Source: Tribonema minus
Taxonomy: Eukaryota > Sar > Xanthophyceae > Tribonematales > Tribonemataceae
Length of the DNA: 64,000 nt
Direction of reading: 5' to 3'
Assembly: GCA_017506865.1 (NCBI GenBank)
Contig: JAFCMP010000180.1
Span: forward strand, 45,942 to 109,941
Shown: positions 26,496-55,605 of the stretch, piece after piece
Layout: each line of letters begins with the position of its first letter
How positions within the stretch are numbered: the first letter of the stretch is position 1
Notes under the pieces: model-generated
Told to the model about the DNA's origin: nothing
The model's database searches: none
Seen by the model: the letters and a program-made list of their open reading frames with translations, nothing else
Translations under genes and position numbers: made by a program

Positions 26496-26499
26496 CAAT

Positions 26500-26856
26500 T
26501 GAAAAGGAGTTGGGGTTATATTTGTTATATGTTAAGCCTGTCTTACTTGTGGATGGGGCAGCGTTGGCTTGGGCTGATGTAGAAGGGTCCATGATGGTTG
26601 ATGGTTGTTGGCTTCAGTTGTCTCTATCCTGAAGCCGTGGTATCCTAGCTGACTGACAAGAACTGAGGCCTTGCAAGCACAACCCTTCATCTGGGGAGAC
26701 TCAAGAGTCTCACCGGTTAAGGGGTTTTCCTGCAATGTCCCCCTAGTTCAAACCAATTGCCCTGGGCCCTAATAACGGCCGAATATAATAGAGTTGAAAC
26801 ATCAAAAGCCAGAAGGCTACATAAATAGTTTACTTTACATACAGCTGCCCGTGTCA
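26500..26856 (-). repeat. 3' LTR of the gypsy element
   Basis: 357 bp, TG...CA in element sense (TGACACGGGC at the inner end). It is nearly identical to the right-hand LTR apart from a few substitutions and small indels, for example around the CTTGCAAGCACAACCC region. This uninterrupted copy preserves the pre-insertion site of the hAT element at about 26791-26803. Confidence 0.93.
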
Positions 26857-26869
26857 ACTCCCACTTCTC
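26857..26869 (-). promoter_or_regulatory. Polypurine tract (plus-strand primer)
   Basis: On the element strand GAGAAGTGGGAGT lies directly upstream of the 3' LTR. A purine run in this position is the expected primer for plus-strand DNA synthesis in LTR elements. Confidence 0.7.
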
Positions 26870-27109
26870 ATGATTTCTCTGTCCCCAGAGAAACGCATAG
26901 CACCACAGGGATCAACGTTGCTACAGTTCTACGTTAGCGCATGTGTAATTCAATTTACTTCACCTCCACACCCAACCTTTACAGACCCTCGTATAGAGTA
27001 TCCACATAGGTACTGTGCAGCGCAATATTCGTTTAAGGCGCCGCTGCACAGCTCGAGGATAGCTTCATGTCACAGCGCCGGCCAGCCACTGAGCACATGC
27101 GTGGTGTAG

Positions 27110-28327
27110 CTACCTCACATCACCATCGCTCAGATCCATGTCATCGCCTCCACTGGATGAATCATAACCTCCCTGACCAGACTCCTGGCCCAAGGGAACC
27201 TCTTCTGCGACCGTGGTCAGCAGTAGGTTCCAACTGGACATAGGGTCTGCCTCAGCCGGCTCGCTAGTAACTGCGGTGCTGTAGTAGTCAGGCCTCAGCC
27301 GCACGGTGGTTAAACGCGTGACTGGGTGCCCGTTGTAATGCACGCGAAACGTGTACTTGCCGGACCGGGGCAAGTATTCCTTGAGCACTGCGCGGCTCCA
27401 ACCAGTTGCACTCTTGACTCTCACGGTCTGACCATGGTAAGTCGCGCCAAAGTCTGGTGGGATCCCAGGGCACATTTCCTGCACCACCTTGGGGCTAGAA
27501 ACCGTGACGCCCAGATCCTTTGCGCGCTGCTGAGTAGCTTCAGCCAACGCAATTGCGCATTGCAACTGCCGCTTTGTGAAGTCCTCCCAGTCACCATCCT
27601 CATGCGCACGCGCCAGTACGGTGCGAGGTAAGCAGTGATGGTTCCCCATAGGTACTTGACTTGTTGCTTAAGCGCGCCGCGCTCCTCACGCACCACCTTA
27701 GTACCTCTCGGGAATAGGGCCAGCGCAGCCTCTTTCGTGGCTACGCGCCGGTCCTCCCGTGGTATCCTCATGGCGTAGTCAGGCATGTCATTCACATGCT
27801 TCAACTCGTAGAGCGCGTGAAAAGTATCGAGCGTCCAAAGCATGGCAACCTCGAGTGCATCGTCCTCTGTCTTCCATGTGCTCAACGTACCATCTCTGAG
27901 CAGCCAACGGTAGTCCCACGAACCATTGGGGTTGTACCGGCGGTCTACCAGCCTCTCTAGCCAGCCATCCTTGGGCAGTTGCTTAATGTCTTCCTCATTA
28001 AGCACCGCGTAGGGCTTGTCAAATTCCCTGACACTTGGCCTTAAATGAAAAGGCTTCATGTTGGTCACATGTGCCCACGTGCGACGCACACGGCGCCCCC
28101 ATCATGCGGCATGAAAATGACAACCCAGATCCGCCAGTTTCCTCTGCTACCACCCATGGTCCAATGAATTTAGGGTCCAGCTTCCTGGAGCGTCCCTTAG
28201 CAGGCTTCTGCTTGATCATGACCAGGTCCCCAACTTTAACCTTCATTGCGCGCTTGCCCGCTTCATTAGCCTTGTCAACTCTGCGCGCCTTGATGCCATA
28301 TGCCTCATCAATAACCTTTTGTGCCAT
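27110..28327 (-). pseudogene. Integrase C-terminal region with chromo-like domain (frame-broken)
   Basis: Three overlapping frames (28327-28019, 28089-27421, 27649-27110) continue the polyprotein with one-base shifts between them. The first has the usual integrase C-terminal tail (KVGDLVMIKQKP, FIGPWVV). The second has THVTNMKPFHLRP-like sequence (seen as AHVTNMKPFHLRP), where gypsy integrases end, then WLERLVDRRYNPNGSWDYRW, resembling a degenerate chromodomain. The last has a barrel-like stretch (GWSRAVLKEYLPRSGKYTFR) and an acidic Asp/Ser-rich end. Chromatin targeting is inferred from the chromo-like segments. Confidence 0.75.
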
Positions 28328-28367
28328 TTTGAGGTTGACGCGCTTGCGTTCAATCTCAGAATGTCAG

Positions 28368-28955
28368 TCACCACTCATGCACTTCATCAGGGAAGGTTTC
28401 AAATGGCAGGGACGGCTCGCGGCCATACACACAGTAGAAAGGGCTAAGGCCTGTTTCTTCTCTGGGGGTGGACCGGAGAGCGAACTGCACAGCATCAACG
28501 CCCTCATGCCAATTCTGTTGGGTCTTGTCAACCCAGGCAGTCAGAATGGCCATGATGCGTTCATTTTGCCGTTCAGCGACCCCATTTGCCTGTGGGTGGT
28601 ATGCACTTGTGTCATTTTTCATGATTCTGAAAATTGAGCACAAATCGCGCACCACAATGTTCAGGAACTCCTTGCCTTGGTCTGACACTAGCTCTTCTAA
28701 CATGGATCCCATCTCTAGGATTACCTTGTACAAGAGCCTTGCAACCGTATGCATGTCCTTGTTTTTAATTGGCATGAGCCAGCAAAATCCAGAGCGTGCC
28801 TCAATTACTGTCAGCAGCCCGATGTGCCCCTCTGAAGACACCACCGAGGTCATGGTGATGTCAGTGCGCGCTCGCTGAACATACGAGTTGGCAGTGTTAA
28901 CATCATCCTGGCCTTGCCAGTCGTAGCCTTCTTGCGCTGTAGGCAAGACATGCAA
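28368..28955 (-). pseudogene. Integrase catalytic core (frame-broken)
   Basis: Encodes the retroviral-type integrase fold with a D,D-35-E set: TDITMTSVVSSEGH (first Asp), VSDQGKEF (second Asp) and QANGVAERQNERI (Glu). It inserts reverse-transcribed DNA in intact elements. It overlaps the upstream frame, which carries the zinc-binding part, by a -1 shift, and ends at a stop followed by continuing homology in another frame. Both junctions look like single-base indels. Confidence 0.88.
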
Positions 28956-31024
28956 CTAGTGACATACGTGTGTACATCGCTGCTGATGCAAGGCCAGTAG
29001 AAGCGCTCAAACAGGCGGACATACGTGGCGCTTGCGCCTGCGTGACCGGCCGTGGCATCGTCATGCCCCAGCCTCAAAACCAGAGGGCGCAGCGCGGCGG
29101 GTACAAACCATTGGCGCAGCACCATCCCGCGTTTGGGGTGGCTCGTGGCCAGATGTACCAGCAGGCCGTCCTCCTCGTGACAGTACCAGTCACGGTTCAC
29201 CATTAAGTGTGCAGCCAGCTCACTATCCTGCAGGTATATATTGTCCCTCAGAGTGCGTGACACTGCCTGACAAAAGGGGTCCCGCTGCTGGAGCTCAATA
29301 AACGCTTCCCGGCTTAGCATTGCCGGAACAGGAGTGGTCCCCTCAACTGGTTCAGGGACCAAGCCATGGCTGGGCTTGCTAAGTGTGCGCTTACGGCGTG
29401 GCTCCGACACCCCCTCTGTTCGCTGCGGGGGGATGGCGCCCCCTGGTAGCGGTACAGCGGTGTTGGCAGCGACCCGGCGGCGCTTGGCAGATATGCTCGC
29501 AGTTTTGCTAGATGCCGGGGAGTCCCAGTCAGACTCTGCCGCCTCATCCATGCATGCATTAGCATACATATGCAAAGTAGCTGGACTGAAAGACATCGAC
29601 GCAGTCTCTCCATCCGTCCACGAAGAGTCTTCCTCGTCCAGCTCACATAGCAAAACATTGACCTGTTGGACCGTAAGCGTAGCCAGCCTGGCTGCTATGC
29701 TTGAGTCCTCACTTGCATTCTTCATGGCTAGCTCATTGAGCGAGAAGGGAGTGCCCCACTCATTGCTCACCAGTTTACCCCTGAAGTTGGCAATTTTAAT
29801 TGCCGCTGCAGAAACATGTGACCCATGGTTGGTCGCCTTTGCTTGGTCGGCAAACTCTTCTAAGGGCGCCGCAAACTCTTCCACAAAATTTGCAAACTTC
29901 ACCCCTGAAGGTGGTGCTGCAAAGCATGGGATTGAGTCTGACCATTGCTCGTCTGCTTGCTCATACTCTCTAGGAGCGTCCACCTCTCTTTGCATAGGGA
30001 GCCTGGACAGGCCGTCTGCATTTGAGTTCACCAGGCCTGGTCGGTGTTGTACGGTAATGTCGTACTCCAGCAACCTCATAGCCCACCGCATGAGCTTGCC
30101 ATTGTGGTCCTGCAAAGTCAGCAGCCATCGTAAGGCCGCCGCATCTGTAACCACTGTGACTGGGTTGCCCCACACGTAAGGTCGGTAATGGCTGAGTGAC
30201 AGCACGACGGCCAGGCACTCCAGCGCGGTAGCGCCAAGTTTGGCGTCTTGTGTGGAATTAATTTTTGAAAAGTAACCCACTACCACTTCCATTTCCTCCT
30301 TCCCATTTACTGTGCGCCTGCGGCCTGCCGCGGGGGCAGCTTCTTTGCCACTAAGTGCCTGCACTGGTTTAAATTGCTTCAAAATGCCACTAGTGGCAGT
30401 TTGAGATGCATCAGTGTACAGCACAAATGGTAGTGAGAAGTCTGGGTGTGACACCAGTTTTGCCTCACACATTGCCTTTCTTAATGCCTCAAAGGCATCG
30501 CGCCTGCGCCTATCCCATACCATTTCTGCATCACTTTTGGTCAGCTCCACAAGTGGGGCTGCCAATGTTGCAAAATCTTGAACATACCGCCGGTAATAGT
30601 TGAAGCAGCCCAGTACTGTACGTACTAGCCCCTTGTCAGCTCTCCCTTTGGCATTCAATGGTGCGCTCATGTCAGACATTGCCTGAACCTTTTCTGGGTC
30701 TGGACGAATGCCCCCTGATCCCACAATGTGACCAAGGAACTTGATCTCAGTTTGGAACCATTGGCATTTGTGCCGCGCCACACTTCGACCAGCGTCTTTG
30801 ATGCGTGATAGGACGTCACGGATATGCGCAAGGTGCGTTTCCATGGAGTCATCATATATCAAGACGTCGTCGACGTAAACCATGGCATATGCACCTAGGG
30901 CGGCGCCCAAAGTGTTGTGCATCAAGCGTGTGAATTGCGCAGGCAAATTCACAAGCCCAAGAAGCCACTGTGTACTGCCATAGCCCTCCATCGGGTGTGC
31001 GGAATGCCGTTTTAGGCTTGTCAC
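28850..31024 (-). pseudogene. RT C-terminal half, RNase H and integrase zinc-binding domain
   Basis: A 724-codon frame that picks up RT at GLVNLPAQFTRLMHNTL and carries the catalytic YVDD (about residues 50-53) and LGHIVG. RNase H follows (LYTDASQTATSG, ALECLAVVLSLSHYRP, VVTDAAALRW, and SNADGLSRLP). A variable Ser/Asp-rich spacer and the HH-CC zinc region of integrase (GHDDATAGHAG to CMSCLQRKK) come next. The start is a frame break, not a true initiation codon: the preceding RT half lies one base out of frame. The overlap with the integrase-core frame is another break. Confidence 0.92.
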
Positions 31025-31577
31025 TTTCGCGCAATGGTATCTGATGGTAGCCTGCGGCCATGTCGACTGAGGACACGTACCGTGCGCCCATCATTTGATG
31101 CACCATATCATCGATGTTGCCTAGACCTCTGCTGTCGCGCTTCGTAACAGCGTTGAGACGGCGGAAGTCCACGCAAAATCGTATCTTATCACCTTGCCTT
31201 GCTAGTACTGGGTTGCATGCCCATGGACCATTGCTAGGCTCCACTTGCTTGCGCACATGCATGGCCTTGAAATGTTCCATGATGTACTCTGCCTCCTTTT
31301 GCGCCCACCTCCTAGCCTTTTCAGCGATGGGCATTGCATCACCAGTGTCAATCTCAAACTCCATGAGGTTTGTCAGTGTGGGATTTTTGGAGTCCTTTGC
31401 AAACACGCTCGCGAATTCGTTGAACACATCCATCAGATGCTCAGCATATGGCCTACCATCGGGGGCTTTCATATCATGAAGGTCACCTTTGGTGGGTAGC
31501 ATCTCGCGTAGCTCTGCCTCAGTGCAGGGTTCCTGTGTGGTACGAGTGCGTTCTGTGCCTGGTGTAGCAGCAGACAC
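30852..31577 (-). pseudogene. Reverse transcriptase N-terminal half (frame-broken)
   Basis: Encodes the fingers and first palm motifs of a Ty3/gypsy RT: KQVEPSNGPWACNPVLARQ, IRFCVDFRRLNAVTKRD, and SSVDMAAGYHQIPL with KTAFRTPDG. After LWQYTV the frame departs from the family and ends; the true continuation lies one base out, starting with LLGLVNLPAQF. A single inserted base near 30985 explains it. Its 5' end overlaps the protease frame by a -1 shift. Confidence 0.9.
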
Positions 31578-34279
31578 ATTAGCAGCATACCAGCAGCCGT
31601 CTCCAGTGCAATTGCTCGCAGCGCCGCGGTTGCAGCGTAGCTGAACTCACTGTTCGGGTGGTGAGCTGCAGCCACCTGCAAGAGCTGTTGCTCAAGCTTG
31701 GTCGCAGATGCGTCCTCTAACTCAATGATATCCTCAGGCAAAGCCGGCCGTGCCTCACCAATGAAGGTGTTTCTGGCCATAAGCACCGGCTGGTCTGAGA
31801 AATTTACCATGCGTGCGCGCACAGGGTTGTGCGCGCCAACAATATCCACCGACATGGCGGCCTTTACGCCCCTTTCTTGCAACTTCAACATCGTCTGAGA
31901 CATTGCGGGTTGTATTACTGCCGAGTAGGGGCTCAGCCCTTTCACTGGTGGGTGTAATGCAACTTCGTTCACCTCGGTGTGAGCTGGAATGAGTATGTCA
32001 TACACCAGGCACACGGCACGATGCGCAGGGGGGGCTGGTACCTTGGGGCTGATTTTCACAGCCCCTGCGGTCTTAGCGCCTTGCCACACAGTCCCATGCG
32101 CTGCCTTGCCGCCTAGCATCTTCAACTTTGGGCCGTCCGATCCTAACGGCTGGTATGTCAAATCCTCATAGTCAAAAAGGGTTTTGTACATGCCAAAGAA
32201 GTCGCTGCCTAGAATGGTGGTGATGGCCAAGTCCACAATGTAGAACTTGTGCCGCACCAGCTTGTTACCAAACCGTAAGGTGAGGTGCAAAGCGCCTACA
32301 ATCTTGACCTGTGTGCGACTGTCTACCAGTTCTATGACTGAATGGTCCCCCTTCTCAAGAGGGCATGTCGTCCCTGGAGATAGCTCATCCGCCGTTGCTT
32401 TTGCCATGATGCCTGCCTCAGCGCCGGGGTCCAGCAATGAGACAAAGTCTCGTTCTTTGAACCCACGTTGGTGCTGCACGCGTGCCTTCAGCCTGGCAAT
32501 TCGCAGCTTGCTGGGCTGGCCACTTGGCAACACAACTGTCTCTCCCGGCCTAACCGAGGCGGGATCAACTTCAGCGGCTTGTGAGCGGCTCGCTTCATCG
32601 TGTAGCTTGGCAGCCACAGCGCTCACGCGAGGGTTGCCTAGCCCACACCTGCGAGTTGCCTCATACACCGTGTCGTCAAACTGATGCTCGTCTTCACTGG
32701 CGTATGCACCTTGTGAGGAGCCGCTAGGGTGTGACTGCACAAGTTCATCTTCCTCAACTTCATCAACATCAGAGTCTGAGTCATTGCACGAGTCATTGAG
32801 CGCTGTGCAAGACCAAGGACCTGTGTTCAAACCTTCTGCACATATCATATCAGGGGTGACTGCATACTGCCAAGCACTGTATCGTGCGGTGACAGCCGCA
32901 ACCCTAGCCTGCACCTTGCCTTGCTCAGTAGGAGTCTCTGCCACATGCATGTAATCTTCAGACCCTGGCAGCATCCATTCAGGGGGGGGTGCACTAGGGT
33001 CATGGTCCAGGCGGACACCCCGGGGACAAGGGGCGCCTACTTGAAGATCAAGCATGCCAGATCCCACAAGCCCAACGGCAATGTGAAAAGCCATGCGTGG
33101 CATGACTAAGTTTACAAGCCATAACTTCATGTCCTCAATGGTGGCCTTGCATGGCAAGTCACGTGTAAAGGTGAGCAGGACAGCCATTTCATGCAATGAC
33201 AGTACTCTTGCATTTTGCACAGGGCCAGCATCATGTTCATCATCAGCCACATAGTCAGCCAGATCCACTGGTGGTTTTCCAGGGTTCCGCCTGACCGGGC
33301 TGGGCATGCAGTCATCAGCATCATACACACTCTTGGTACCCTTCACGCGAGATTTCCAAAAGAAACAGCGCTCAGGGCAGCGAAGAACACGCCGTACGGA
33401 CATGGGTAATGATGAACGCTGAATTGCATTAATTAACGCCCCGAACCGTGCCATAGCGGTCGCGACACCAACCCTTGCCCGCGCAATCACCACATACACC
33501 CGCCGCCGGTGGCACGCTATGCTAAAATCTGACCCCTTCAGCTTGCTGACATAGAGACAGTAGCCGTGGGCCAGCAGCAAAGCCTGCGCGCGCGCCCACG
33601 CCTTGGAGCTGAGCATGGAGACCACATTCTCGATGACACAGCAGCGCAGCTTCGCCCTCACAATCAGCCGCGCCGCCATGACCGTCACCTCCGCCGCTGC
33701 CCCCTCAACGCCACTCCCGTTTGCATGATCTGTGCACGGGGGGGACATTGTGGTGAGGTCAGGATCCAGTTCAGCCAGTGCTATGGCTACTGCATCATCG
33801 CTCAGGCACGCGTTTAAAACCTTGTGGGTGCCAGGGTGCAGTTCGTGGTACGCCTCACACACGCGGGGGCACTTGTCAACAGCAAGTTGAGTGTCCACCA
33901 CAAGGCCTGCCACACTTGCCTGCTTTAACCCCTCGTCCCAGCCACCAATGCCGCAGCATATGGAGGCGTGTGTCACATGCCGCGCTGCACCCGCCACTGG
34001 CATGCCAGCATCAGGGTCCTGTGTCACAGCGGTAGCACAGACAGGCGATTCGCTTGCATTAGGTATGGTAACCGTATGCGGCGAACCAGTGTTTGATGGG
34101 GGAGTATCGTTTGCACCATCACCTTCAAGTTGCATGTTAGCATCAGCCGTAGACTGCGACACTTCCGCGAGGGAAGGTACGCTGGGTAACGAAGGATGCA
34201 ACATAGCCAGCAATACGGCGTCATTGCGCCCCGGCGCGCGCTCACGTGGTGAGGTTGCGATGGACGCAGAGACGTACAT
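31469..34279 (-). CDS. Retrotransposon cytosine-C5 DNA methyltransferase plus aspartic protease
   Basis: An intact 936-codon frame. Residues about 105-410 carry the cytosine-C5 methyltransferase motifs in order: I (SICCGIGGWDEGLKQA, SAM binding), IV (MSPPCTDH, catalytic Cys182), VI (VIENVV, 217-219), VIII (CHRRRVYVV, 258-262), a variable target-recognition stretch, IX (RVLSLHEMAVLLTF), and X-like (NLVMPRMAFHIAV). The enzyme would methylate DNA cytosines. After an acidic linker, residues about 600-710 form the retroviral-type protease: LLDPGAEAGIM, with DPG where DTG or DSG is usual, and TTILGSDFF. The frame overlaps the Gag frame by 256 nt and is probably expressed with Gag through splicing or frameshifting. 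It stays open although RT and integrase are broken. Methyltransferase identity is firm from motif order; DNA target is unknown. Confidence 0.9.
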   Translation of the reverse strand: MYVSASIATSPRERAPGRNDAVLLAMLHPSLPSVPSLAEVSQSTADANMQLEGDGANDTPPSNTGSPHTVTIPNASESPVCATAVTQDPDAGMPVAGAARHVTHASICCGIGGWDEGLKQASVAGLVVDTQLAVDKCPRVCEAYHELHPGTHKVLNACLSDDAVAIALAELDPDLTTMSPPCTDHANGSGVEGAAAEVTVMAARLIVRAKLRCCVIENVVSMLSSKAWARAQALLLAHGYCLYVSKLKGSDFSIACHRRRVYVVIARARVGVATAMARFGALINAIQRSSLPMSVRRVLRCPERCFFWKSRVKGTKSVYDADDCMPSPVRRNPGKPPVDLADYVADDEHDAGPVQNARVLSLHEMAVLLTFTRDLPCKATIEDMKLWLVNLVMPRMAFHIAVGLVGSGMLDLQVGAPCPRGVRLDHDPSAPPPEWMLPGSEDYMHVAETPTEQGKVQARVAAVTARYSAWQYAVTPDMICAEGLNTGPWSCTALNDSCNDSDSDVDEVEEDELVQSHPSGSSQGAYASEDEHQFDDTVYEATRRCGLGNPRVSAVAAKLHDEASRSQAAEVDPASVRPGETVVLPSGQPSKLRIARLKARVQHQRGFKERDFVSLLDPGAEAGIMAKATADELSPGTTCPLEKGDHSVIELVDSRTQVKIVGALHLTLRFGNKLVRHKFYIVDLAITTILGSDFFGMYKTLFDYEDLTYQPLGSDGPKLKMLGGKAAHGTVWQGAKTAGAVKISPKVPAPPAHRAVCLVYDILIPAHTEVNEVALHPPVKGLSPYSAVIQPAMSQTMLKLQERGVKAAMSVDIVGAHNPVRARMVNFSDQPVLMARNTFIGEARPALPEDIIELEDASATKLEQQLLQVAAAHHPNSEFSYAATAALRAIALETAAGMLLMCLLLHQAQNALVPHRNPALRQSYARCYPPKVTFMI

Positions 34280-36408
34280 ATCATGTTGACCAAAAACATG
34301 TTCAAGTTTAACTGCGGCGCGCGCACCGCTGGTGCCACCCCCTGAGAGGGGCGCGCGCGCGCGCGCGCGAGCGAAGTAGACTCACCCTGAGCCCTCTGCC
34401 AGGCCACAAAGGCCATCATCTTGTGATACTCGTCCGCCTCCGCCGGCGTTGGCGCTGCGGCGGCAGCCGCCGCTGCCACGACCGGCGCCTGCGGCATCGC
34501 AGCCGGGGGCGGAAAAGGGGGGCGAGGACCGTACCGCGTGTACTGATTCGCCTGATGCGCCGGCGGCGCGCCGCGCGGCTCACTGCGCGGCCCGCCGTAC
34601 GGTGCGGCGCGGGGGCGGCGGGCAGGATCAAACGCCGGGCAGTTGGGCGTGTTGCGATGCATGTCAACGGAGGTGCCGCGCGGCAGCGTTGTCTGGCAGT
34701 CAAAGCATACCCAGTGAGAACGCGGGTTGAACTGCACCATGCCTGAATTGCCATGCTCAGGCGCGGGGGGCCCACGCCTGGCGGGCGCGGCTGCCGCAGC
34801 CGACTTGGCGGCTACAGCAGCAGCTCGCACCTCCAAGGCTTTCTCCTTTTTGGCAAGGCGCCTCTCCTTGTCCGCCAGCGCCTTCTCCTTGCGCGCAATC
34901 TGCGAGGCAGAGGGTGGCTGGCGCGGCGCGTCACTTGCTTGCGACGCGTCGTCGCGCAAACTCTCAAGGTCAGAACCATCCTGCGACGTGGGTCCGCCCT
35001 TGCTCGCGGCATGGGCTTTCCCGTTCCAGGTGCGCTCAATGTGCTCCTGAATGCTCACAAGACCAGCGTCCTGCCAGCCCCTCCCCAGTGCAACCCTAGC
35101 GGCCGTCCGCTCCTTGGATGAGATGAGGCGTAAGTAGTGAAGCTTCTCAGAAAACTCACGAGAACTTTCGCTACCACCTGCCTGTACGACCATGTTCCGC
35201 ACGCGGAGAGCCAACTCCCCAGGGCTCTCGCTCGGGAGACGCCTGGCTTGAAGTAGAGAGTTGTACACCTTCTCTTGGGCAGCTTCAGAGTTGAAGTGCT
35301 CAATCATGGCTGCACAACGTTCTGCGTACGTTAGCTGCTCCCACCCCTTCCGCTTGCCGCCGACCTCTAGGGACAGTAGGCGCACAGTTGAAATTAAGGG
35401 TTTGTCCTTCGACGCCTTTATGGCCACACTTAGAGCGTGGACCTTGACGTCCTCTGCCACGGAGCGCAGCGCAGCGGTGAGTAAGTCAAGCCTGGTGACA
35501 CATACACCTACGCGAGAAGAGAGGTCGGCTACGCCGGCAATCCTACCAGCCTTCGCATAGACGTCTCCCTTGCCCCTGTTAGCAGCGTCAGCGCCGTCCG
35601 CTGTGGACGGTTCACTGCCATCGTCGCTGGGGGTCGTGGTGACCCCAGTGCTCGACGACGCAGTATGAGACAACTGAATCGAGGCCGCCGCGCCAACGCG
35701 GGGCGGGGCAACCTGGACCAAACGCCCTGCCTGCAAGTGCTGCACCAGCTGCACCTTCTCGAACGCCTTGAGACGGCGCAGTGTATCTGCATCGCCAAGA
35801 TCGCGATCCATGATTGCGTCGAGTTCTATGCGAGCAGTGTCCAAAGCGCTGAATCTCTGTGAGTACGCGCAGCGGTCCACTTCTACCTGCTCCATGCTCG
35901 CCTTAAGCCGTGGAAGCTGGTACGTGATCGCATAGAGGTCCGTCTTATACATTGTACGTTCAGGGGAACCCTCCTTGCTAGCATCGCGCAGGCCATGCAA
36001 CACCTCAGCCTGGGCGTCAAGGTCCTGGAACCGTTCTTGCAGCTGTAACTCGTTTGCAGACAGTCTCGCCGAGGCCGACGCCCCGGACTTGCGTGAGGCT
36101 GCCAGCAGCTCGAGCAGCTGGGTATAACGCGCTTTGGATACGGTTAGACCGGCACCAGTCTCACCCGCATCAGAGCTGGCGTCGTCACCGGCGCCAGCGC
36201 ATATCTCGTCGTCGAGCTCCGCCTCTCGCTCGCTACCGCCAATGGCCGGCGCAGGAGGGGTGGCAGGCTCCTTTGACGACTTGGACTTCTTCACGGGCTT
36301 CTCCGGCTTGTCAGCCGGTGCCGCATCAGCCTTGCCCTTACTCCCCCTTTTTCTCGAGGAGGAGTCCGAGTCTGCACATGGAACAGGATCATGTGTTGAG
36401 TCTCTCAA
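34024..36408 (-). CDS. Gag-like structural protein of the gypsy element
   Basis: A roughly 790-codon open frame. The N-terminus is Lys/Ser/Asp-rich with basic clusters (RKRGSKGK, KPVKKSKSSK). A helical, coiled-coil-prone region follows, then a capsid-like segment (YNSLLQARRLPSESPGELAL), a charged coiled coil (EKALADKERRLAKKEKAL), and a zinc knuckle-like C-x2-C...H-x5-C (CFDCQTTLP...MHRNTPNC). The frame has no ATG near its start and opens with TTG after an in-frame stop. A TGTGCAG acceptor-like site lies just inside, so an upstream leader exon may supply the ATG. Past 34386 it runs over a (GC)n microsatellite into the methyltransferase region in another frame, so its last 120 codons are probably not genuine. 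Confidence 0.8.
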   Translation of the reverse strand: MRDSTHDPVPCADSDSSSRKRGSKGKADAAPADKPEKPVKKSKSSKEPATPPAPAIGGSEREAELDDEICAGAGDDASSDAGETGAGLTVSKARYTQLLELLAASRKSGASASARLSANELQLQERFQDLDAQAEVLHGLRDASKEGSPERTMYKTDLYAITYQLPRLKASMEQVEVDRCAYSQRFSALDTARIELDAIMDRDLGDADTLRRLKAFEKVQLVQHLQAGRLVQVAPPRVGAAASIQLSHTASSSTGVTTTPSDDGSEPSTADGADAANRGKGDVYAKAGRIAGVADLSSRVGVCVTRLDLLTAALRSVAEDVKVHALSVAIKASKDKPLISTVRLLSLEVGGKRKGWEQLTYAERCAAMIEHFNSEAAQEKVYNSLLQARRLPSESPGELALRVRNMVVQAGGSESSREFSEKLHYLRLISSKERTAARVALGRGWQDAGLVSIQEHIERTWNGKAHAASKGGPTSQDGSDLESLRDDASQASDAPRQPPSASQIARKEKALADKERRLAKKEKALEVRAAAVAAKSAAAAAPARRGPPAPEHGNSGMVQFNPRSHWVCFDCQTTLPRGTSVDMHRNTPNCPAFDPARRPRAAPYGGPRSEPRGAPPAHQANQYTRYGPRPPFPPPAAMPQAPVVAAAAAAAAPTPAEADEYHKMMAFVAWQRAQGESTSLARARARPSQGVAPAVRAPQLNLNMFLVNMICTSLRPSQPHHVSARRGAMTPYCWLCCILRYPAYLPSRKCRSLRLMLTCNLKVMVQTILPHQTLVRRIRLPYLMQANRLSVLPL
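34312..34385 (-). other. Candidate 74-nt intron joining Gag to the methyltransferase frame
   Basis: In element sense, Gag codons for WQRAQ end at CAGG|GTGAGT, a strong donor. 74 nt later GCCGCAG is a good acceptor. Removing the interval, which contains the (GC)n run, puts Gag exactly in frame with sequence leading into MYVSASIATS of the methyltransferase frame. Unspliced RNA would yield Gag only and spliced RNA a Gag-methyltransferase-protease fusion. This is inferred from splice signals and phase only. Confidence 0.5.
34348..34370. repeat. (GC)n microsatellite
   Basis: A run of alternating G and C inside the candidate Gag/methyltransferase intron. It is unlike the flanking codon pattern, supporting a non-coding state. 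Confidence 0.8.
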
Positions 36409-37520
36409 ACGTACACCTCACCATCAAACACTAAGATATTAATCAGCCTGAGAGAGCAACAATAGTACTCATCAAGAGAGCCTTCTCTTGGAACATGGGA
36501 TGTCCCTGTGCGTTCGCCCGTGCAATTAGCCAGCCCGGGACGTGCACAGAACACACCGGCACTCCCATGAGATGCAGGTGGTTGCCAATCATAGCCACGC
36601 AAGTCAGTAGAACCACGGGCTCCCGCAACCGTGTCAACTGCGGCATGCTATGTTTCATGCATTTGGTTCTAGTGCGGCAGCGGCAGAGCAGATTTACTGT
36701 TGTTGCTGCGCAAGCACCATATGCACACCTGTTTATCGTCGTCGTTAACGCTGTTGCCTAGCTGATTGTGGCCTGCACCAATTCAAAACCTCCGGTATGC
36801 AACCGTTACCTAGTGAGTTGCCTCTGGGTAGCAACTTCAAGCGAGCGTCGACGCATTCGCAAGACGAAATGTGATCATCAGCTCGATTACACCATCATCA
36901 GATGGTGCCGAGAAACAAAGGGTGGGGGGTGATGGGTAACCTCGCAAGCCCACTAATGCCCGTGCAAGTCAGTACGGGAGAACCCGTACCGCAGCTTTCG
37001 ACAGTCAGCCTCATCATCTCAATTACACAGCGTTAACAGCCGACGTCATGCGAAGCAAATGCGGGTGTGTGAGCCGCTGCTAAGCATGATTCCTCCGACA
37101 CAGGCACTGGAGCTAGGGCGGCTCACGCAGCATAAAAGCACTGCTGCTCAGTGTTCACTTAGTAGCGACAGCTGGCACAACCAAGCAAAGGATGCGGCAT
37201 GCAGGCGCATAATTACAATGTGCATGCACACCGACCCTGCGCTAAATTCCTCCTCTTAGCCGCCTCCGGTTAGTACGAGCGGTAACCAACACTCAGCGCG
37301 TCCGCCTCGCGAAGGGCCGATACTGAATGATTGGACGATTTCCTATTCAGTCGATTGGCCTACGTTAAGGAGCGGAAAAACAACGTTGGCGCTCCAGAGC
37401 ACGTGTTGATGAGGGCAAGCGAGGGCTAACGATACGATATTTAGTGAGCACGTGTAGCTTGGTTCGTCAGGGCCCGCCAGAGCGAAGCAAGGGGTGGGTA
37501 AGGACTGTCTGTAGGTGCCA
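36409..37520 (-). other. 5' leader of the gypsy element
   Basis: About 1.1 kb between the primer-binding region and Gag with no long frame. It is probably untranslated leader, possibly with a leader exon for Gag. At the upstream end, directly after the partial LTR copy, stands TGGCACCTACAGACAGTCC, which begins with the TGG typical of primer-binding sites but matches no tRNA I recognise. Confidence 0.5.
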
Positions 37521-37663
37521 TGAAAAGGAGTTGGGGTTATATTTGTTATATGTTAAGCCTGTCTTACTTGTGGATGGGGCAGCGTTGGCTTGGGCTGATG
37601 TAGAAGGGTCCATGATGATTGATGGTTGTTGGCTTCAGTTGTCTCTATCCTGAAGCCGTGGCA
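37521..37663 (-). repeat. Truncated extra LTR end
   Basis: About 140 bp identical, or nearly so, to the inner part of the LTR (from TGAAAAGGAG to CTGAAGCCGTGG on the plus strand). It lies on the far side of the tRNA-like segment. The element thus has LTR, tRNA copy, partial LTR at its 5' end, a likely product of aberrant strand transfer in reverse transcription. Confidence 0.8.
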
Positions 37664-37725
37664 TCGGATAGGGCATCCGCCTGCGAAGCGGGGGGTTGCA
37701 GGTTCAGGTCCTGCTTCGGTTGCCA
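37659..37725 (+). other. tRNA-Arg-like copy at the primer-binding site
   Basis: Plus-strand sequence reads as tRNA from position 8 to CCA: anticodon stem TCCGC/GCGGG with loop CTGCGAA (anticodon GCG, Arg), T arm GCAGG/CCTGC with loop TTCAGGT, and 3' TTGCCA. The 5' acceptor strand is missing, replaced by LTR sequence through a GTGG overlap. The CCA abuts the LTR, so its complement is the primer-binding site, extended from the usual 18 nt to about 67 nt. It is not a functional tRNA gene. Confidence 0.75.
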
Positions 37726-38036
37726 TGAAATTTTAAAGGAGTTGGGGTTATATTTGTTATATGTTAAGCCTGTCTTACTTTTGGATGGGGCAGCGTTGGC
37801 TTGGGCTGATGTAGAAGGGTCCATGATGGTTGATGGTTGTTGGCTTCAGTTGTCTCTATCCTGAAGCCGTGGTATCCTAGCTGACTGACAAGAACTGAGG
37901 CCTTCAAGTTGCAAGCACAACCCACCATCTGGGGAGACTCAAGAGTCTCACCGGTTAAGGGGTTTTCCTGCAATGTCCCCCTAGTTCAAACCAATTGCCC
38001 TGGGCCCTAATAACGGCCGAATATAATAGAGTTGAA

Positions 38037-38150
38037 TAGGGTTGGCAACACCGTATTCCGTAGATACACCGTACATCCGTATATACGCCGTATCTACGCC
38101 GTATGTCAATTTCTGGCGCGCCAAAATTCGTATTTTGCCGTATTTCCTTC
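38037..38150 (+). repeat. Left terminal inverted repeat and subterminal CCGTAT motifs
   Basis: The terminus TAGGGTTGGCAA is followed by about six CCGTAT/CCGTA motifs in roughly 100 bp. They mirror the motifs at the right end. Confidence 0.85.
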
Positions 38151-38176
38151 TTTCAAGTCACACAGAGCAGTGCAGC

Positions 38177-40559
38177 ATGGCGGATGCCGCCGATCCTGGC
38201 CCCGACCTGGCCAAGCAGGCCAGAGCATTGTATCAAAAGCGTTGTGATCAAAAGCGCCAAGGTCAGGCGGGCTGGTGGGGGTCATTCAGTGTCGAGCTGG
38301 ACTCAGTGAAGCACGAGGTGCGGCTTGTTTGCCTTCGTTGTTCAGCCAAGCTAGGTGCCAGCAACCCTTCGCGCGCAGCAAACGACCATCTTAAGAGCAA
38401 GGCATGCCTCAGAGCGACTGCTGCCAGTGCAGCAGCTGTTGCTGCTGCCGAAGCAGCAGCCGCTGCTGCTGCTGCTGCTGGCGATGGCGAGGAGGAAGTA
38501 GAGGTGACTGGCACTAAACGCCACCGCGGTGCTGCTGGCATCACACCTTACATGGCTACATCAGGCCAGATAACTCAAGCACGGAACAGCCTTGCCCGCT
38601 TCTTCTACAAGTCCGGGGTGGCGTTCCACCTGATTGAGCAGGAGGACTTGGTTGCAGCATTCGCTGCCCTTGGCGCCGACCTGCCTAACCGCAAAGCCTT
38701 GGCCGGGACAATGCTGAACAAGGAGCACGACCGCGTCAGCCGCGACGTCTGGGAAGCGATCGATGCCTTGCACCTCGTCCAGCTTGCCAGCGATGGGTGG
38801 AGGCGCAAGCATTGCGGAGACGGCACTCCGCTGGTTAACCTTTGCGCACTGTTGCCAAAGGGCGGTTCCTACTTCGTGACAACGGAGCCAGCGCGAGGCG
38901 TTTGCAAGAATGCGGAGTGGATCGAGGAGCTGCACATGCGGTGGGCGAAGAAGGTCACCAGGGGGAACCTGGACAGGCTGCTGGGAATGGTCATGGACAA
39001 TACCAAGGTACGTGCTGCCGTAGAAGCTGCTACGGTGTGTGAAAGTTTTTTGCCAGTGCGTCATTTGCATGCAATGACAGCAATATATGCTACAATAAGT
39101 CCAGCAGTGCATGCAATGCAGCATATCATTGTAATAAATTGAATGGAAGCAAGTCAACCAGCTCCCCACGCTTGCGCGCTTATCCAGATGCTCCCTTTCT
39201 TCGCTTGACACGTGGTTAGTAGCACAGCTCACACAGGAATTGATAGTATGCTGGCAAATGCACATGTTGTGGCCATAAAAACTGGAGCAAATCTTGGTAC
39301 ATGCCTGCAGTGCCTCATGATGTTTTCCATCACCTGCAATAACTTTGCAGGCAAATCGTAAGGCGCTGGACCTGATGAAGCAGAAGCACCCGACTTGGCT
39401 GCTTCTGGGGTGCCAGGCTCACGCACTGGCCCTTCTCATCAAGGATCTACACGGCGAGAAGAATGCGCGATGCGACTGGTCCAAGAAAGCGTACGGCAAA
39501 GCGCTGATGATGTCCAACACCATCAACGGCTCAGAGACCATACACAGCGCCCTGCGTGAGCAGCAGAAGTTCAAGTACGGCAAAGTCAAGGCCGTCCGCT
39601 CTCACTGCCCCACGCGCTTCGCCATCCTGCACTTCATCTGCTCCGACTTGCTCGACTCCGAGGAGGCCATCAAGCTGATGGTTGGCGACCGCAGCTGGGG
39701 TAAAGTGTCTGAGGGCACCACACATGCGGCAGCATTTACGACTGCAGCCACAGTAGAGCCAGCACGGGGGCGGGCGGCAGCATACTACTTTTTCGATGAG
39801 GCAGCAGCGCTGAAGAAGCTAGTGCAGCCTGTGTCTGATGCCATTCACCAGGTTGAGAGCGACAAGCCGCTGTTGAGTCAGATGCTGCCGATCTGGAAGC
39901 AGCTGTTGCAGCATGCGGCAGACTTCGATGACCACATTGACAATGTCGAGCGCTCCCCTGTGCTGCCACTATTTGAGCGGCGCTACAACACTCACTTCGA
40001 CAAGTCGTGGCCTGCAGCATATGTGCTTGACCCTGTCTACGCCTATAAGGTTGATGGGGAGTGGTTTCTGCCTTTCAGTAAACTCAGCAGGCTAGAGAGC
40101 AAGGGTGCGCAAGAGTGCTTTCTGGAGCTGGGGGGAGGGGAGCATGCAGAGGCTGTTGAGGCTGAGCTTGTCAAGTTGCAGCTTGCACCCCTTCCCGAGC
40201 CCATGTGGGCTGCGTTGCCTACGTTGACCAAGCGTACATCGCTGCCTAAGGGCAAGGTTGAGCTCGCTGACAGCAGCATGCGCCGCGGCTGGTGGCAGAC
40301 CTATGGTCGCGAGCATTTTCCTCATTTGTCGCGGGTGGCAGTGCGCCTGCTGTCGTTCCACGTGACTGCATGTGCAACCGAGCGCAACTGGTCCCTGTGG
40401 GGCAATGTGTACCCTAAGTGCCGCAGCAGGCTTGCACTTGAGCGTGGTGAGAAGCTAGTGTTCATTAAAGGCAATGATAAGGCTGCTGAGCGCAAGACAG
40501 ATGAGGAAGTCATGCTTACAGTGATGGAGGCGGCGGAGGAAGAGGTTGTCAACATGTAA
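38177..40559 (+). CDS. hAT transposase
   Basis: Two exons (38177-39007 and 39351-40559, phase 0) give about 679 residues. The ATG was chosen because it starts just before the DNA-binding domain and the upstream frame is terminal-repeat sequence. The N-terminus has a BED-type zinc finger (CLRC...NDHLKSKAC), then an Ala-rich spacer. The RNase H-like core shows LASDGWRRKHCGDG (first Asp), MVMDNTK at the exon end (second Asp) and GCQAHALALLIKDL, a hallmark of the family. The C-terminal dimerisation region contains HVTACATERNWSLWG and RSRLALERGEKLVFIK. The protein excises and inserts the element with 8-bp duplications. No frame breaks are visible. Confidence 0.93.
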
Positions 40560-40734
40560 CATGCAAATGGGGGGATGAAGGACTAGGGCAATATCTACAC
40601 TAGGCTAATTACGCACATACATGATGTTATTTTCAAGTGTGTTTGCTTGTATTTATGTTTTACAAGTGTCTGGTTTAGCTGCTTCACTTTTGAAGTTGAA
40701 GTTGAAGTTTAAACGCCTGTACTGGTGATATGCG

Positions 40735-40836
40735 TTTGTCAGATACGGTTTAGAAATACGTATATACGGAAAATACGGCAAAATACGGTATTTTATCAGT
40801 ATATGGTTTTCAGAAATACGGATTTTGCCAACCCTA
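40735..40836 (+). repeat. Right terminal inverted repeat and subterminal ATACGG motifs
   Basis: Ends TTGCCAACCCTA, the complement of the left terminus. At least five ATACGG/ATACGTA motifs lie within 100 bp of the end. Confidence 0.85.
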
Positions 40837-40907
40837 GCAACTTGAAACATCATAAGCCAGAAGGCTACATAAATAGTTTACTTTACATACAGCTGCCCGT
40901 GTCACAA

Positions 40908-42108
40908 TCCCTTGAACTCCGAGTCGTCAGACCCGACTTTGTCCTGAGATGCAGTCTCAGCAGTGTGAGGTGCCAGCTACTGCCGACAGCGTTGTGTACT
41001 GCTTGCAACAGTCCGTGAGTTCACCAGGCCTTTTGAAAGTGTTTGCACGTCAGTAAAGCATTGGTAGGTAACTGTGGTGGGTCTTTGCGCTGAGGGCCTG
41101 TTCGCTCAGCATGCACAACTGCACTGCGCGGTGAGTTGGCCACAGTGTGACAGCTGTGCGCTGCGAGCGCCCCTTCCCGGGCGGCGTGCCGCATGAGGCA
41201 GTGCCTGTCGCATCTCACGCTGCTGTCGCAATGGTTGCACCGCATTGCTTAGTGGTGATTACGGCACACTGATTGACCTGTACTCGTGATGATCTCGTCT
41301 AGAAGTACAGGCAACCCTGAACGAGGCTGGCTTCCTGCATAGCACAATCTGCAGAGCTGGACAGAGTGGCAGCGAACATCGACAACACCACTTCAACTTC
41401 AGCGTGGATGAGGTGCTGCTTGCTGACTGCGCAGGTGACTATCAGAGGTGACCCTTTCACTGTCACGCTGTGGTCAACCAGTCACACCTGGGAACTTGAG
41501 CCGCAGACTGAGACTGACCCTGTCACAGACGCAGCCGTGCCTCTCTTTTAAAAAAAAAACCAGTTCAAGGAACGGGGCCCTCACCAGAGCTGAACGACAC
41601 TCGTAAGACATCGGTTGATTGTCCCAGGTGCTGACACTCCTCGTGTGCTTGTGTGCAATTGTTCAGGTCAGAAAGGTCTGGTGCTGCTGTTGAATCGGAT
41701 GTGAGGCAGAAGTCTTCATAGGTGTTGACTTGAACGCTCCAGGATCAGTTTTTCGCACTCAACGACGCGGTAAAGACACCCGGTGCCATGGCGAGTCTTC
41801 CTGCCGCTGGCGCTTCAGCTACTGGCACGACCCCCGTATCTGCAAACGCAGGAACAACGAAGCTTTGAGGAATGAGCGCATACACGCCCATGACCTCCGA
41901 TAGCCACACGCGCACAGGCAGCAGTGACATGCGCGACGCGCCTGCAACAAACACATGTAGGCACTCATATTCACATAACACGGCGCGGTGCGCCCCCCCG
42001 CTGCACAGCCCCAGCAAACAGACACGCAGCGGCCCTACTTCAACTTGAACTTTACACGCCCACGCCCAGCGGCGAGCGCCTCGCCGCACCGCAACGCGCG
42101 CAATCGCG
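40908..42108. other. Intergenic, nothing recognised
   Basis: About 1.2 kb between the retroelement and the stop of the thioredoxin/PUB gene. No frame with domain character is visible; it presumably includes that gene's 3' UTR. Confidence 0.5.
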
Positions 42109-54091: not shown

Positions 54092-55605
54092 ATGGCAACA
54101 AGGATGGTGGCAACAACACGGAAGAAGCGGGCTCGTGTCCTGGCCCTTGCCTCTTCTTGTGACGCTAAAGCGGAAGCGAGCCAACAGCAACGCGGTAAGA
54201 TGGTGTTTCCGTCTTTGCTGATCTGTTGCCTTCATTGGACCAGGCACTATACTACAATCGGTTGCGTTGTAACATATGCAGATTTGTCAGAAACGGATTC
54301 TCGCTTTTGCTCCACCATCATGATTCACCTGTTGTGAATTCGTTACCGCACGTGTCAGTCGTACCTGGAGCGCAAGTCTCGTTTGCGAATGTGGCCTGGT
54401 TGTCTCCAGCGGTGCAGTGTGTGTGTCACTGACTTTTACACACCTCCATTCGCTTTCGCTCCTCAGACTTCTGGACAACAGTCTTCGAGTTTCTGCTGCA
54501 TGGGCACTACCTGCAGCTATCAACTGTAAGCACGGGGTGGCGCGCCATGTACGCCAGTAGCATGCAGCACAGGGGGCGGCCCCAGTCACAGAAAGCAACA
54601 ACTGTGCGAGCCGTGATTGCATCGGTGCCCCTCGTGCAGTGGGCGATAGCAAACGGCTGCAAGGCGGACACAAGCCTGCTGCGCCACGCCGCCGCGTGCG
54701 GTCCTCTAGAAGTAGTGCGGCATCTGCATGAGAACTATGCGCACTGCATCGACCCCCCAGCTCAAAATGAGTCCGTATGCGAAGCCGCTGCTGCGCGTGG
54801 GAACCTGGAGATGCTGCAATGGGCGCGCGCCCATAATTTTCACTGGGGCACAAGAACAGCGGGGGGGGCGGCACGCGGGGGGCACCTGGTGGTGCTGCAG
54901 TGGGCGCACGCCAACGGGTGCCCACTCGATGAGAGAACATGCGCGGGGGCGGCGCGCGGAGGGCACCTGGAGGTGCTGATGTGGGCGCGCAACGCCGGCT
55001 GCGGGTGGGACGAATGGACATGCAATGGCGCCGCGTCAGGCGGCCACCTGCACATCCTCCGGTACGCACGCCGCCACAGGTGTCGGTGGAGCAGCATAAC
55101 GTCCGCTGACGCGGCCCGCCAGGGCCATCTCCAGGTCTTACAATGGGCACACGCAAACGGCTGCCCCATGGACTTTGTAACATACTTTGCGGCCGCATGC
55201 AGAGGCCACCTGCATGACCTGCAGTGGCTGCAGGACTCAGGCCGTCCCCTGGACGCAGCGGCGTGCACGGCGGCCGCTGAGGAGGGGCGCCTGGACGTCC
55301 TGCAGTGGCTGCGCGCGCGCGGCTGGCCATGGGACGCAGCGGTATGCTCAGTGGCAGCCGAACAGGGTCACCTGGAGCTGCTGCAGTGGGCACGCGCCAA
55401 CGGCTGCCCTTGGCAGGTGGAGGAGCCCTTAGGGTTTCTACTGTTCATTGATTACACTGATTCAGATCAGCTTGTCGAAATGTCGGCAACGCTGGAGTGG
55501 GCGCTAGCAAACGGCTGCCCGTGCAGCGTCATGTGTAGATCTGCGTACAGGAGGCTGCGGCGATCGGCACAGTCCCGGACGGATCTGGAGCGCGATTCTG
55601 TGTAG
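54092..55605 (+). CDS. F-box-like / ankyrin-type repeat protein
   Basis: Two exons (54092-54194 and 54467-55605) join in phase 1 and give about 413 residues. The first is a basic leader (MATRMVATTRKKRARV). Immediately after the junction comes an F-box-like helix set (DFWTTVFEFLLHGHYL, then LSTVSTGWRAM). The rest is about eight repeats of 27-30 residues of the form GHLEVLQWARANGCPWDE followed by AA-rich turns. These are the divergent ankyrin-type repeats common as large families in heterokont algae and giant viruses. Substrate recruitment for ubiquitination is inferred from the F-box-like start; the target is unknown. Frame is intact to the TAG. Confidence 0.85.

Follow-up and report, generated by a model that had tools for sequence, protein, structure and literature searches.

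The stretch of DNA analysed here, 64,000 nucleotides of contig JAFCMP010000180.1 (hereafter, the window), almost certainly carries a Ty3/gypsy retrotransposon with long terminal repeats (LTRs), in which a predicted C5 cytosine methyltransferase (DNMT) lies between Gag and the protease within the Gag-Pol frame, and at least three gypsy lineages of the same genome, this one included, encode such a predicted enzyme. The element occupies positions 26500-40904 of the minus strand, with a hAT transposon nested inside its 5′ LTR. An earlier note, made from the letters of the window, had described methyltransferase motifs in a single open frame of 936 amino acids (31469-34279, minus strand), directly upstream of a retroviral-type protease. 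That frame is indeed present in the list of open reading frames and holds a Pfam match, but it is not a natural protein unit. Homology to relatives crosses three frames in the window copy, which is thus broken by frame shifts, and, judged by this comparison, the 936-residue frame is the methyltransferase-protease part of a longer Gag-Pol frame that has been shifted here.

The identity of the domain is supported by profile, alignment and model. The frame matches the Pfam profile PF00145, as the earlier note had expected, with an E-value of 2e-11 (44.4 bits, cut-off 22) over residues 105-267 and profile positions 4-162 of 324, and in a relative of a second kind (L043, type B, see below) the match spans profile positions 3-320 of 324. 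From the Pfam match (33479-33967), the alignment and the structural model, the domain was placed at residues 95-415 of the frame (33035-33997, minus strand). When it is aligned with 19 prokaryotic and phage enzymes, G16, G18 and G19, P87-C88, E123-N124-V125, and R164 and R166 are invariant, and we take these columns to be motifs I, IV, VI and VIII, respectively. These four of the six motifs that had been read in order in the frame are therefore present; the other two, IX and X, fall outside the Pfam match; they may be represented by the columns SPV.R.PG and L..P, which come after motif VIII and are conserved in all six of the window-type sequences aligned. The domain was also modelled with AlphaFold, from an alignment that included the 19 remote prokaryotic and phage rows; the model had a mean predicted local distance difference test score (pLDDT) of 74.8 and a predicted template modelling score (pTM) of 0.78, with confidence blocks of 64-96 up to residue 200 and mostly weaker values beyond it. 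All of the best 50 of 1703 Foldseek matches of this model in the PDB were chains of the C5 methyltransferase family.

The methyltransferase encoded in the Gag-Pol frame is also apparently catalytic, to judge from the residues it retains. It could be argued that the domain keeps its fold but acts in the particle as a non-catalytic nucleic-acid binder or chaperone, as motif IV varies ahead of the catalytic cysteine (PPC, APC, SSC or STPC) and the constraint on the domain is below that on the reverse transcriptase (RT). However, none of the aligned sequences, six of window type and three of type B, departs from the catalytic cysteine, the ENV or the arginines of motif VIII, and we regard a non-catalytic role as quite improbable. 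The STPC form is that of L189, a 59% relative found with the RT region, in which the cysteine and the ENV are kept.

The genome to which the window belongs (158 Mb in 554 contigs) was searched for copies. The 936-residue protein gave 53 matches there, 21 of them at 97% identity over residues 1-898, and internal stops are absent from 19 of the 21. A chance match to the motifs is ruled out by these figures; a host gene adjoining an element was also considered and rejected. Further copies, for which the earlier note had advised a search, are thus plentiful, and the refuting case that it had named, a methyltransferase segment confined to the window copy, does not hold, as the segment recurs at 97% identity on many contigs. 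In eight copies, the methyltransferase-protease and RT-RNase H-H2C2 matches lie within one open frame of 3104 codons. Additionally, a query with the RT region, which excludes the methyltransferase, gave 64 matches, at least 42 of which have a listed methyltransferase match within 8 kb upstream. Among the 22 others, five start within 2.5 kb of the contig start (C161, C529, C6, C450 and C448), one (C323:190505) has a listed methyltransferase match 7-9 kb upstream, just past the 8-kb limit, and the one that was read, L189, carries a methyltransferase. One RT match (C311:6955-9090) is found in an open frame that, at 6208 codons, has double the usual length and is perhaps formed by two tandem elements.

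In total, the union of four search lists contains 262 merged C5-methyltransferase places on 177 contigs, fragments included. They were drawn from all 123 rows of a general list, 44 of the 53 matches of the window protein, 84 of the 119 matches of an L042-type query and 88 of the 123 matches of a type B query; second pieces of the same place and rows already present were removed by hand, the matches of a type C search were left out, and three virus-type places, one DNMT2-type place and the type D loci described below are included. Some families have many similar members: at least 14 of the 123 type B matches are 94-100% identical to the query over the domain and at least 27 are 64-65% identical, at least 23 of the 119 L042-type matches reach 98-100%, and at least 10 places among the 126 matches of the type C query reach 92-100%, whole or in parts.

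The LTR query found 41 matches, several of them as pairs about 11 kb apart. In all six copies read, the two LTRs are 99.7-100% identical over 325-345 bp (these pairs were chosen for their equal search scores, which favours young copies), and target duplications of 4 bp (TTGC, TTGC and CTCA) were found in the three copies with both flanks read. The flanks of the two TTGC copies (C345 and C66) are nearly the same, so that a single locus may be represented twice, in an assembly that may contain both haplotypes of some loci. From the near-identical LTR pairs and the target duplications, the window-type family has evidently moved recently.

The methyltransferase occupies three positions in the polyproteins. 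Domain order was read in the window, L036 and L040-L042 for type A, in L039 and L043 for type B, and in L095 for type C; the scanned stretches of L039-L043 were 10 kb long, and all other places were assigned to types by similarity or left unassigned. In type A (the window, L040, L041 and L042), the Pfam order is DNMT, RT, RNase H, H2C2 and rve, and the methyltransferase is preceded by a gag-like region, recognized by eye, in which there is a C..C..H..C finger. A weak retropepsin match (22.4 bits, cut-off 28.2) lies between methyltransferase and RT in L040, with none in L041 or L042. The protease that had been read in the window directly after the methyltransferase corresponds to a retropepsin-like stretch recognized by eye (LLDPGAEA..., approximately 32090-32482, minus strand), homologous in position to this weak gag-asp_proteas match. 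In type B (L039 and L043), the order is DNMT, RT, RNase H, H2C2, rve and a chromodomain-like end, which scores 29.2 bits in L039 and 24.0 in L043 (cut-off 25.1) and therefore passes in L039 only; a weak retropepsin match precedes the methyltransferase in L043 only. In type C (L095), RT and RNase H are followed by the methyltransferase, and then, in the next frame, by H2C2, rve and an SH3 match below its cut-off. The rve matches of L039-L043 (26.8-31.5 bits) are under the cut-off of 32.6, as the retropepsin matches are under theirs. Consequently, the enzyme lies between Gag and protease in type A, between protease and RT in type B, and between RNase H and integrase in type C, for which one stretch was read. 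As the RT-RNase H regions of the three types are only 28-33% identical, the types are regarded as deep element lineages. There is also a fourth group of methyltransferase-coding loci, type D (L087, L088, L090 and L091), with about 4 kb covered per locus; a scan of one frame of L088 and of the 716-residue frame after the methyltransferase in L091 found no RT.

Comparisons of three pairs of sequences show that the methyltransferase domain is under purifying selection. By Nei-Gojobori counting, which gives rough values, the ratio of nonsynonymous to synonymous substitution rates (dN/dS) of the domain is 0.139 for L010/L036, 0.210 for L041/L042 and 0.234 for L043/L039, with departures from neutrality of p = 5.6e-37, 9.1e-27 and 9.0e-25, respectively, by Fisher's test. 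The proportion of nonsynonymous differences (pN) is 0.33, 0.49 and 0.35 in linkers against 0.13, 0.28 and 0.24 in the domain, and a gag stretch has a dN/dS of 0.516. Copies that are nearly identical differ at too few sites to give a ratio (for example, by four synonymous and six amino-acid changes between L036 and L038). A chance fusion of a host or bacterial gene in the window copy, or a misassembly, has a negligible probability and was rejected, as the same order recurs on many contigs with LTR pairs, target duplications and purifying selection.

The origin of the enzyme was addressed, as the earlier note had recommended, with a phylogeny of the domain (49 rows, with 29 of 116 loci, and with bacterial and phage rows gathered using the type B alignment; it holds one DNMT1 row, is built without a DNMT3 row and includes the long branches of type C, 2.21, type D, 2.84, and DNMT1, 2.51). 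The retroelement enzymes adjoin a group of alphaproteobacterial, other bacterial and phage enzymes, apart from DNMT1, DNMT2, HhaI and HaeIII. Type A (six rows) forms one clade (support 98/87), type B (three rows) another (100/99), and type A is united with the single rows of types C and D (98/90). In the free tree, a branch with support 97/96 separates DNMT1 from the retroelement enzymes, and the approximately unbiased (AU) test rejects a single clade of all retroelement enzymes with DNMT1 (p = 0.0147). A single clade of types A, B, C and D is compatible with the data (p = 0.208), and either one capture followed by shuffling or several captures may explain the four types. A search of viral contigs with the window-type alignment gave 42 pattern stretches and no relatives. 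Three further loci (L001, L002 and L003, on C223 and C181) hold C5 methyltransferase genes of a different kind, which may be part of DNA integrated from a virus or a bacterium; L001 and L002 stand beside M.HhaI with weak support (87/77).

The class of the enzyme bears on its substrate. In the PDB, a window-type profile found 53 sequences with E ≤ 1, DNMT2 chains being first (1.5e-12 to 4.6e-12), ahead of M.HhaI (2.6e-8); HaeIII, DNMT1 and, at E = 0.006, 7r76 (“Rad8”), which is presumably a DNMT5, were also matched. No chain named DNMT3 appeared among these 53 sequences or among the best 50 of the 1703 fold matches. The PDB does contain DNMT3 chains. Because the profile scores are DNMT2-like, a serious alternative is that the enzyme acts in the manner of DNMT2, on the RNA of the element or on its tRNA primer, instead of on DNA. 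In accordance with this, the best Foldseek match is Dnmt2 of S. pombe (E = 1.3e-12), a tree that unites types A, C and D with DNMT2 is compatible with the data in the AU test (p = 0.219), and Gag and Pol proteins encounter RNA first. By contrast, the retroelement enzymes stay outside the DNMT2 clade (100/99) in the free tree, the type B profile matches DNMT1 and DNMT2 about equally in the PDB, and the third Foldseek match, with an almost equal score, is the DNA methyltransferase MET1. Overall, we consider an RNA substrate unlikely.

We propose instead that the methyltransferase acts on the cDNA of the element. In this model, it would be produced as a part of Gag-Pol and packed, together with RT and integrase, into the virus-like particle, where the protease would free it from the polyprotein. 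The freed enzyme would then modify cytosines of the cDNA before or during integration. As a consequence, new copies would bear the DNA mark of the host on arrival and be hidden from attack on unmethylated foreign DNA and/or they would be tamed at once, so that the host survives. The three different polyprotein sites suggest that presence in the particle counts more than the exact place. It has been reported, in the accessible part of de Mendoza et al. (2018; PMC5890265), that the domains of SymbioDIRS-Dnmt3 were capable of de novo CG methylation in yeast. The target could also be host chromatin, near the insertion or genome-wide, with a change of the host methylome. Coding copies are numerous, many of them in long open frames, and the type B elements, with their chromodomain-like end, would suit such a role; we nevertheless consider it an improbable alternative to the methylation of cDNA.

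Several observations weigh against the methylation of cDNA by an active enzyme, apart from the possible RNA substrate. In the L042 type, an abundant family, SSC replaces PPC in motif IV, with the cysteine and the ENV kept. The methyltransferase is less constrained than the RT, whose dN/dS is 0.035 for L010/L036 (against 0.139) and 0.125 for L043/L039, and the linkers beside it have ratios of 0.220 and 0.281, hardly above its own, because synonymous sites are near saturation. Long-lasting CG methylation is expected to deplete CpG. The LTRs of the window copy are CpG-poor (observed/expected ratio of 0.30 over 617 bp), but the ratio over the whole window element is 0.79, a mild depletion compared with its flanks (1.01 and 0.88), and it is 0.82-0.99 in the 10-kb stretches of L039-L043 and 1.14 in the type C stretch of L095. 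These figures do not decide the question of methylation. Furthermore, the enzymes of the Klebsormidium gypsy element and of SymbioLINE were inactive in yeast, a result considered inconclusive by its authors (PMC5890265, accessible part).

With these points weighed, a gypsy family with a Gag-Pol methyltransferase that methylates its cDNA is, in our view, the best explanation overall, with a probability of roughly 60%. The particular route outlined above, with packaging of the enzyme made in Gag-Pol, must be taken as tentative, at a little under even odds. We would put forward even more cautiously the wider proposal that a C5 methyltransferase of prokaryotic or phage descent has become a standard module of ochrophyte gypsy polyproteins, captured or shuffled into three positions in three deep lineages. 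Its activity would be maintained by selection, and the genome would thus contain hundreds of retroelement genes whose products methylate the cDNA of their own elements and may predominate among the methyltransferases of the host.

The remaining features of the window element agree with its classification. A TG...CA LTR pair and a short target duplication are found in this element and its relatives, a tRNA primer site is present in the window copy, and RT, RNase H, H2C2 and rve each score above their Pfam cut-offs in the window copy, in the order RT, RNase H, integrase. The 3′ LTR, with termini TGACACGGG...TTTTCA, is at 26500-26856 (minus strand), its limits (TGACACGG...TTTCA) being derived from relatives. 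It is followed, on the same strand, by the integrase core frame at 28371-28955 (rve, E = 3.5e-10, 40.5 bits), a frame with the C-terminal part of RT, RNase H and the H2C2 zinc finger of integrase at 28850-31024 (RVT_1, RT_RNaseH and Integrase_H2C2), and the N-terminal part of RT in a different frame, as the copy is broken, at 30852-31577 (RVT_1, E = 1.1e-7, and frame comparison). Beyond the methyltransferase, the gag-like frame with its C..C..H..C finger motif (34024-36408, minus strand) was recognized by eye, and a part of it has its homologue in the N-terminal region of a relative's long frame; a Pfam scan of this frame gave no match. The primer-binding site TGGCAACCGAAGCAGGACC (TGGCAACCGAAGCAGG) is at 37707-37725 (minus strand) and adjoins the 5′ LTR, whose inner part lies at 37726-38036 (minus strand). 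The hAT transposon, foreign to the element, lies at 38037-40836 on the plus strand and was recognized by a Dimer_Tnp_hAT match and the inverted ends TAGGGTTGGCAA; its frames are at 38042-39142 and 39345-40559. The outer part of the 5′ LTR follows at 40847-40904 (minus strand). Across the pair, 351 of 357 aligned LTR bases are identical (98.3%), and the duplication CAAT flanks the element at 26496-26499 and at 40905-40908, so the paired LTRs and the CAAT duplication that had been reported are both borne out. The possibility that the duplication was lacking on the 5′ side was rejected, since the rest of the LTR and the CAAT are located past the nested hAT.

Some other observations were made in the window. 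Between the 5′ LTR and the interior (37521-37725), a stretch that extends the primer-binding site resembles, by eye, the 3′ portion of a tRNA, which may be tRNA-Arg, and is followed by a second partial LTR copy at 37521-37665; it looks as if reverse transcription had run into the tRNA primer and then jumped. Scans of the window gave no tRNA with ARAGORN and no match in Rfam. Elsewhere, there are ankyrin-like repeats of the WARANGCPW type (54547-55605) and a CEH.R.R..CK.CGG finger protein (56613-57875), both of kinds that are common in algal and giant-virus genomes.

The host most probably belongs to the ochrophytes, on the side of the brown algae, because a nuclear, plastid-derived psaA fragment (L170, 48 residues, the one read among 11 matches) fits the PsaA of the giant kelp Macrocystis best (9YGV, 88.0 bits). 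The scores of other chains are 78.6 for a diatom (8ZEH), 78.6 for a cryptophyte (7Y7B), 77.6 for a red alga (9KC5) and 73.3 for Emiliania (9JJ8), the organisms of these five chains being those given in the accessible part of PMC13219633; further PDB chains gave 87.7 (9m4f), 80.2 (8wm6) and 80.0 bits (7y7a). The heterokont-type genome that the earlier note had supposed is supported by this single fragment, and a xanthophyte such as Tribonema might agree with the placement.

Eukaryotes commonly defend themselves against retrotransposons by cytosine methylation, a mark with which many hosts silence them. Here, retrotransposons themselves carry an enzyme of the class that adds this mark. The genome also offers many natural replicates, such as families with particular motif changes and very young copies, which make the question of cDNA self-methylation testable. 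A C5 methyltransferase in the coding region, many copies and purifying selection, by which methyltransferase-bearing retrotransposons are recognized, are all found here.

Such elements have precedents, and the comparison with them rests on the accessible parts of the papers cited. In Symbiodinium, de Mendoza et al. (2018; PMC5890265) described C5 methyltransferases carried by SymbioDIRS and by SymbioLINE elements, and demonstrated activity of the DIRS enzymes; they also described one in a Klebsormidium gypsy element. The same cases were recounted by Sarre et al. (2025; PMC12344493), who catalogued “orphan” eukaryotic DNMTs as well. The precedents that the earlier note had named, in dinoflagellates and in the charophyte Klebsormidium, are those of de Mendoza et al. 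In a 2019 opinion paper (PMC6338049), which credits DCM in Ty3/Gypsy and DIRS elements to de Mendoza et al., stramenopiles are among the hosts of DAM- and DCM-encoding elements of these groups, without specification of the enzyme found there, which weighs against full novelty. The part available of a survey of gypsy elements in Ectocarpus and other stramenopiles (PMC12477816) names no C5-methyltransferase retrotransposon, and none in stramenopile gypsy elements was found in titles and abstract openings of the literature, a coverage outside which most subscription papers and all bioRxiv preprints fall.

KnitGypsy-Dnmt3 of Klebsormidium nitens is likewise a gypsy element whose polyprotein contains a C5 methyltransferase; as here, it lacks introns, is present in several copies and is under purifying selection (PMC5890265). 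However, its enzyme is Dnmt3-related, whereas no DNMT3-named chain was matched by the window-type profile, and its repeats are arranged as in DIRS, in contrast to the ordinary paired TG...CA LTRs and 4-bp target duplications seen here, where, in addition, there are three insertion positions and the host is probably an ochrophyte. SymbioDIRS-Dnmt3 and SymbioLINE-Dnmt share with the present case hundreds of retroelement C5 methyltransferases, long kept and selected, those of SymbioLINE being an orphan class, but they are tyrosine-recombinase and LINE elements of a dinoflagellate, not LTR/gypsy elements (PMC5890265). Although the Klebsormidium and Symbiodinium elements were compared by description, the different host group, the domain order, the ordinary LTRs and the missing DNMT3-named chain indirectly favour the independent case that had been suggested. 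In addition, chromatin-related domains (chromodomains and Tudor domains) were taken up by gypsy elements in Ectocarpus and other stramenopiles, and the type B elements share the chromodomain-like end; those domains are readers, whereas the methyltransferase is a writer of marks (PMC12477816). The association between retrotransposon and methyltransferase thus recurs in a third, distant lineage, probably with a different class of enzyme and at three insertion sites in one genome. Compared with the earlier cases, the host lineage and the insertion positions are new, and the class of the enzyme probably is as well.

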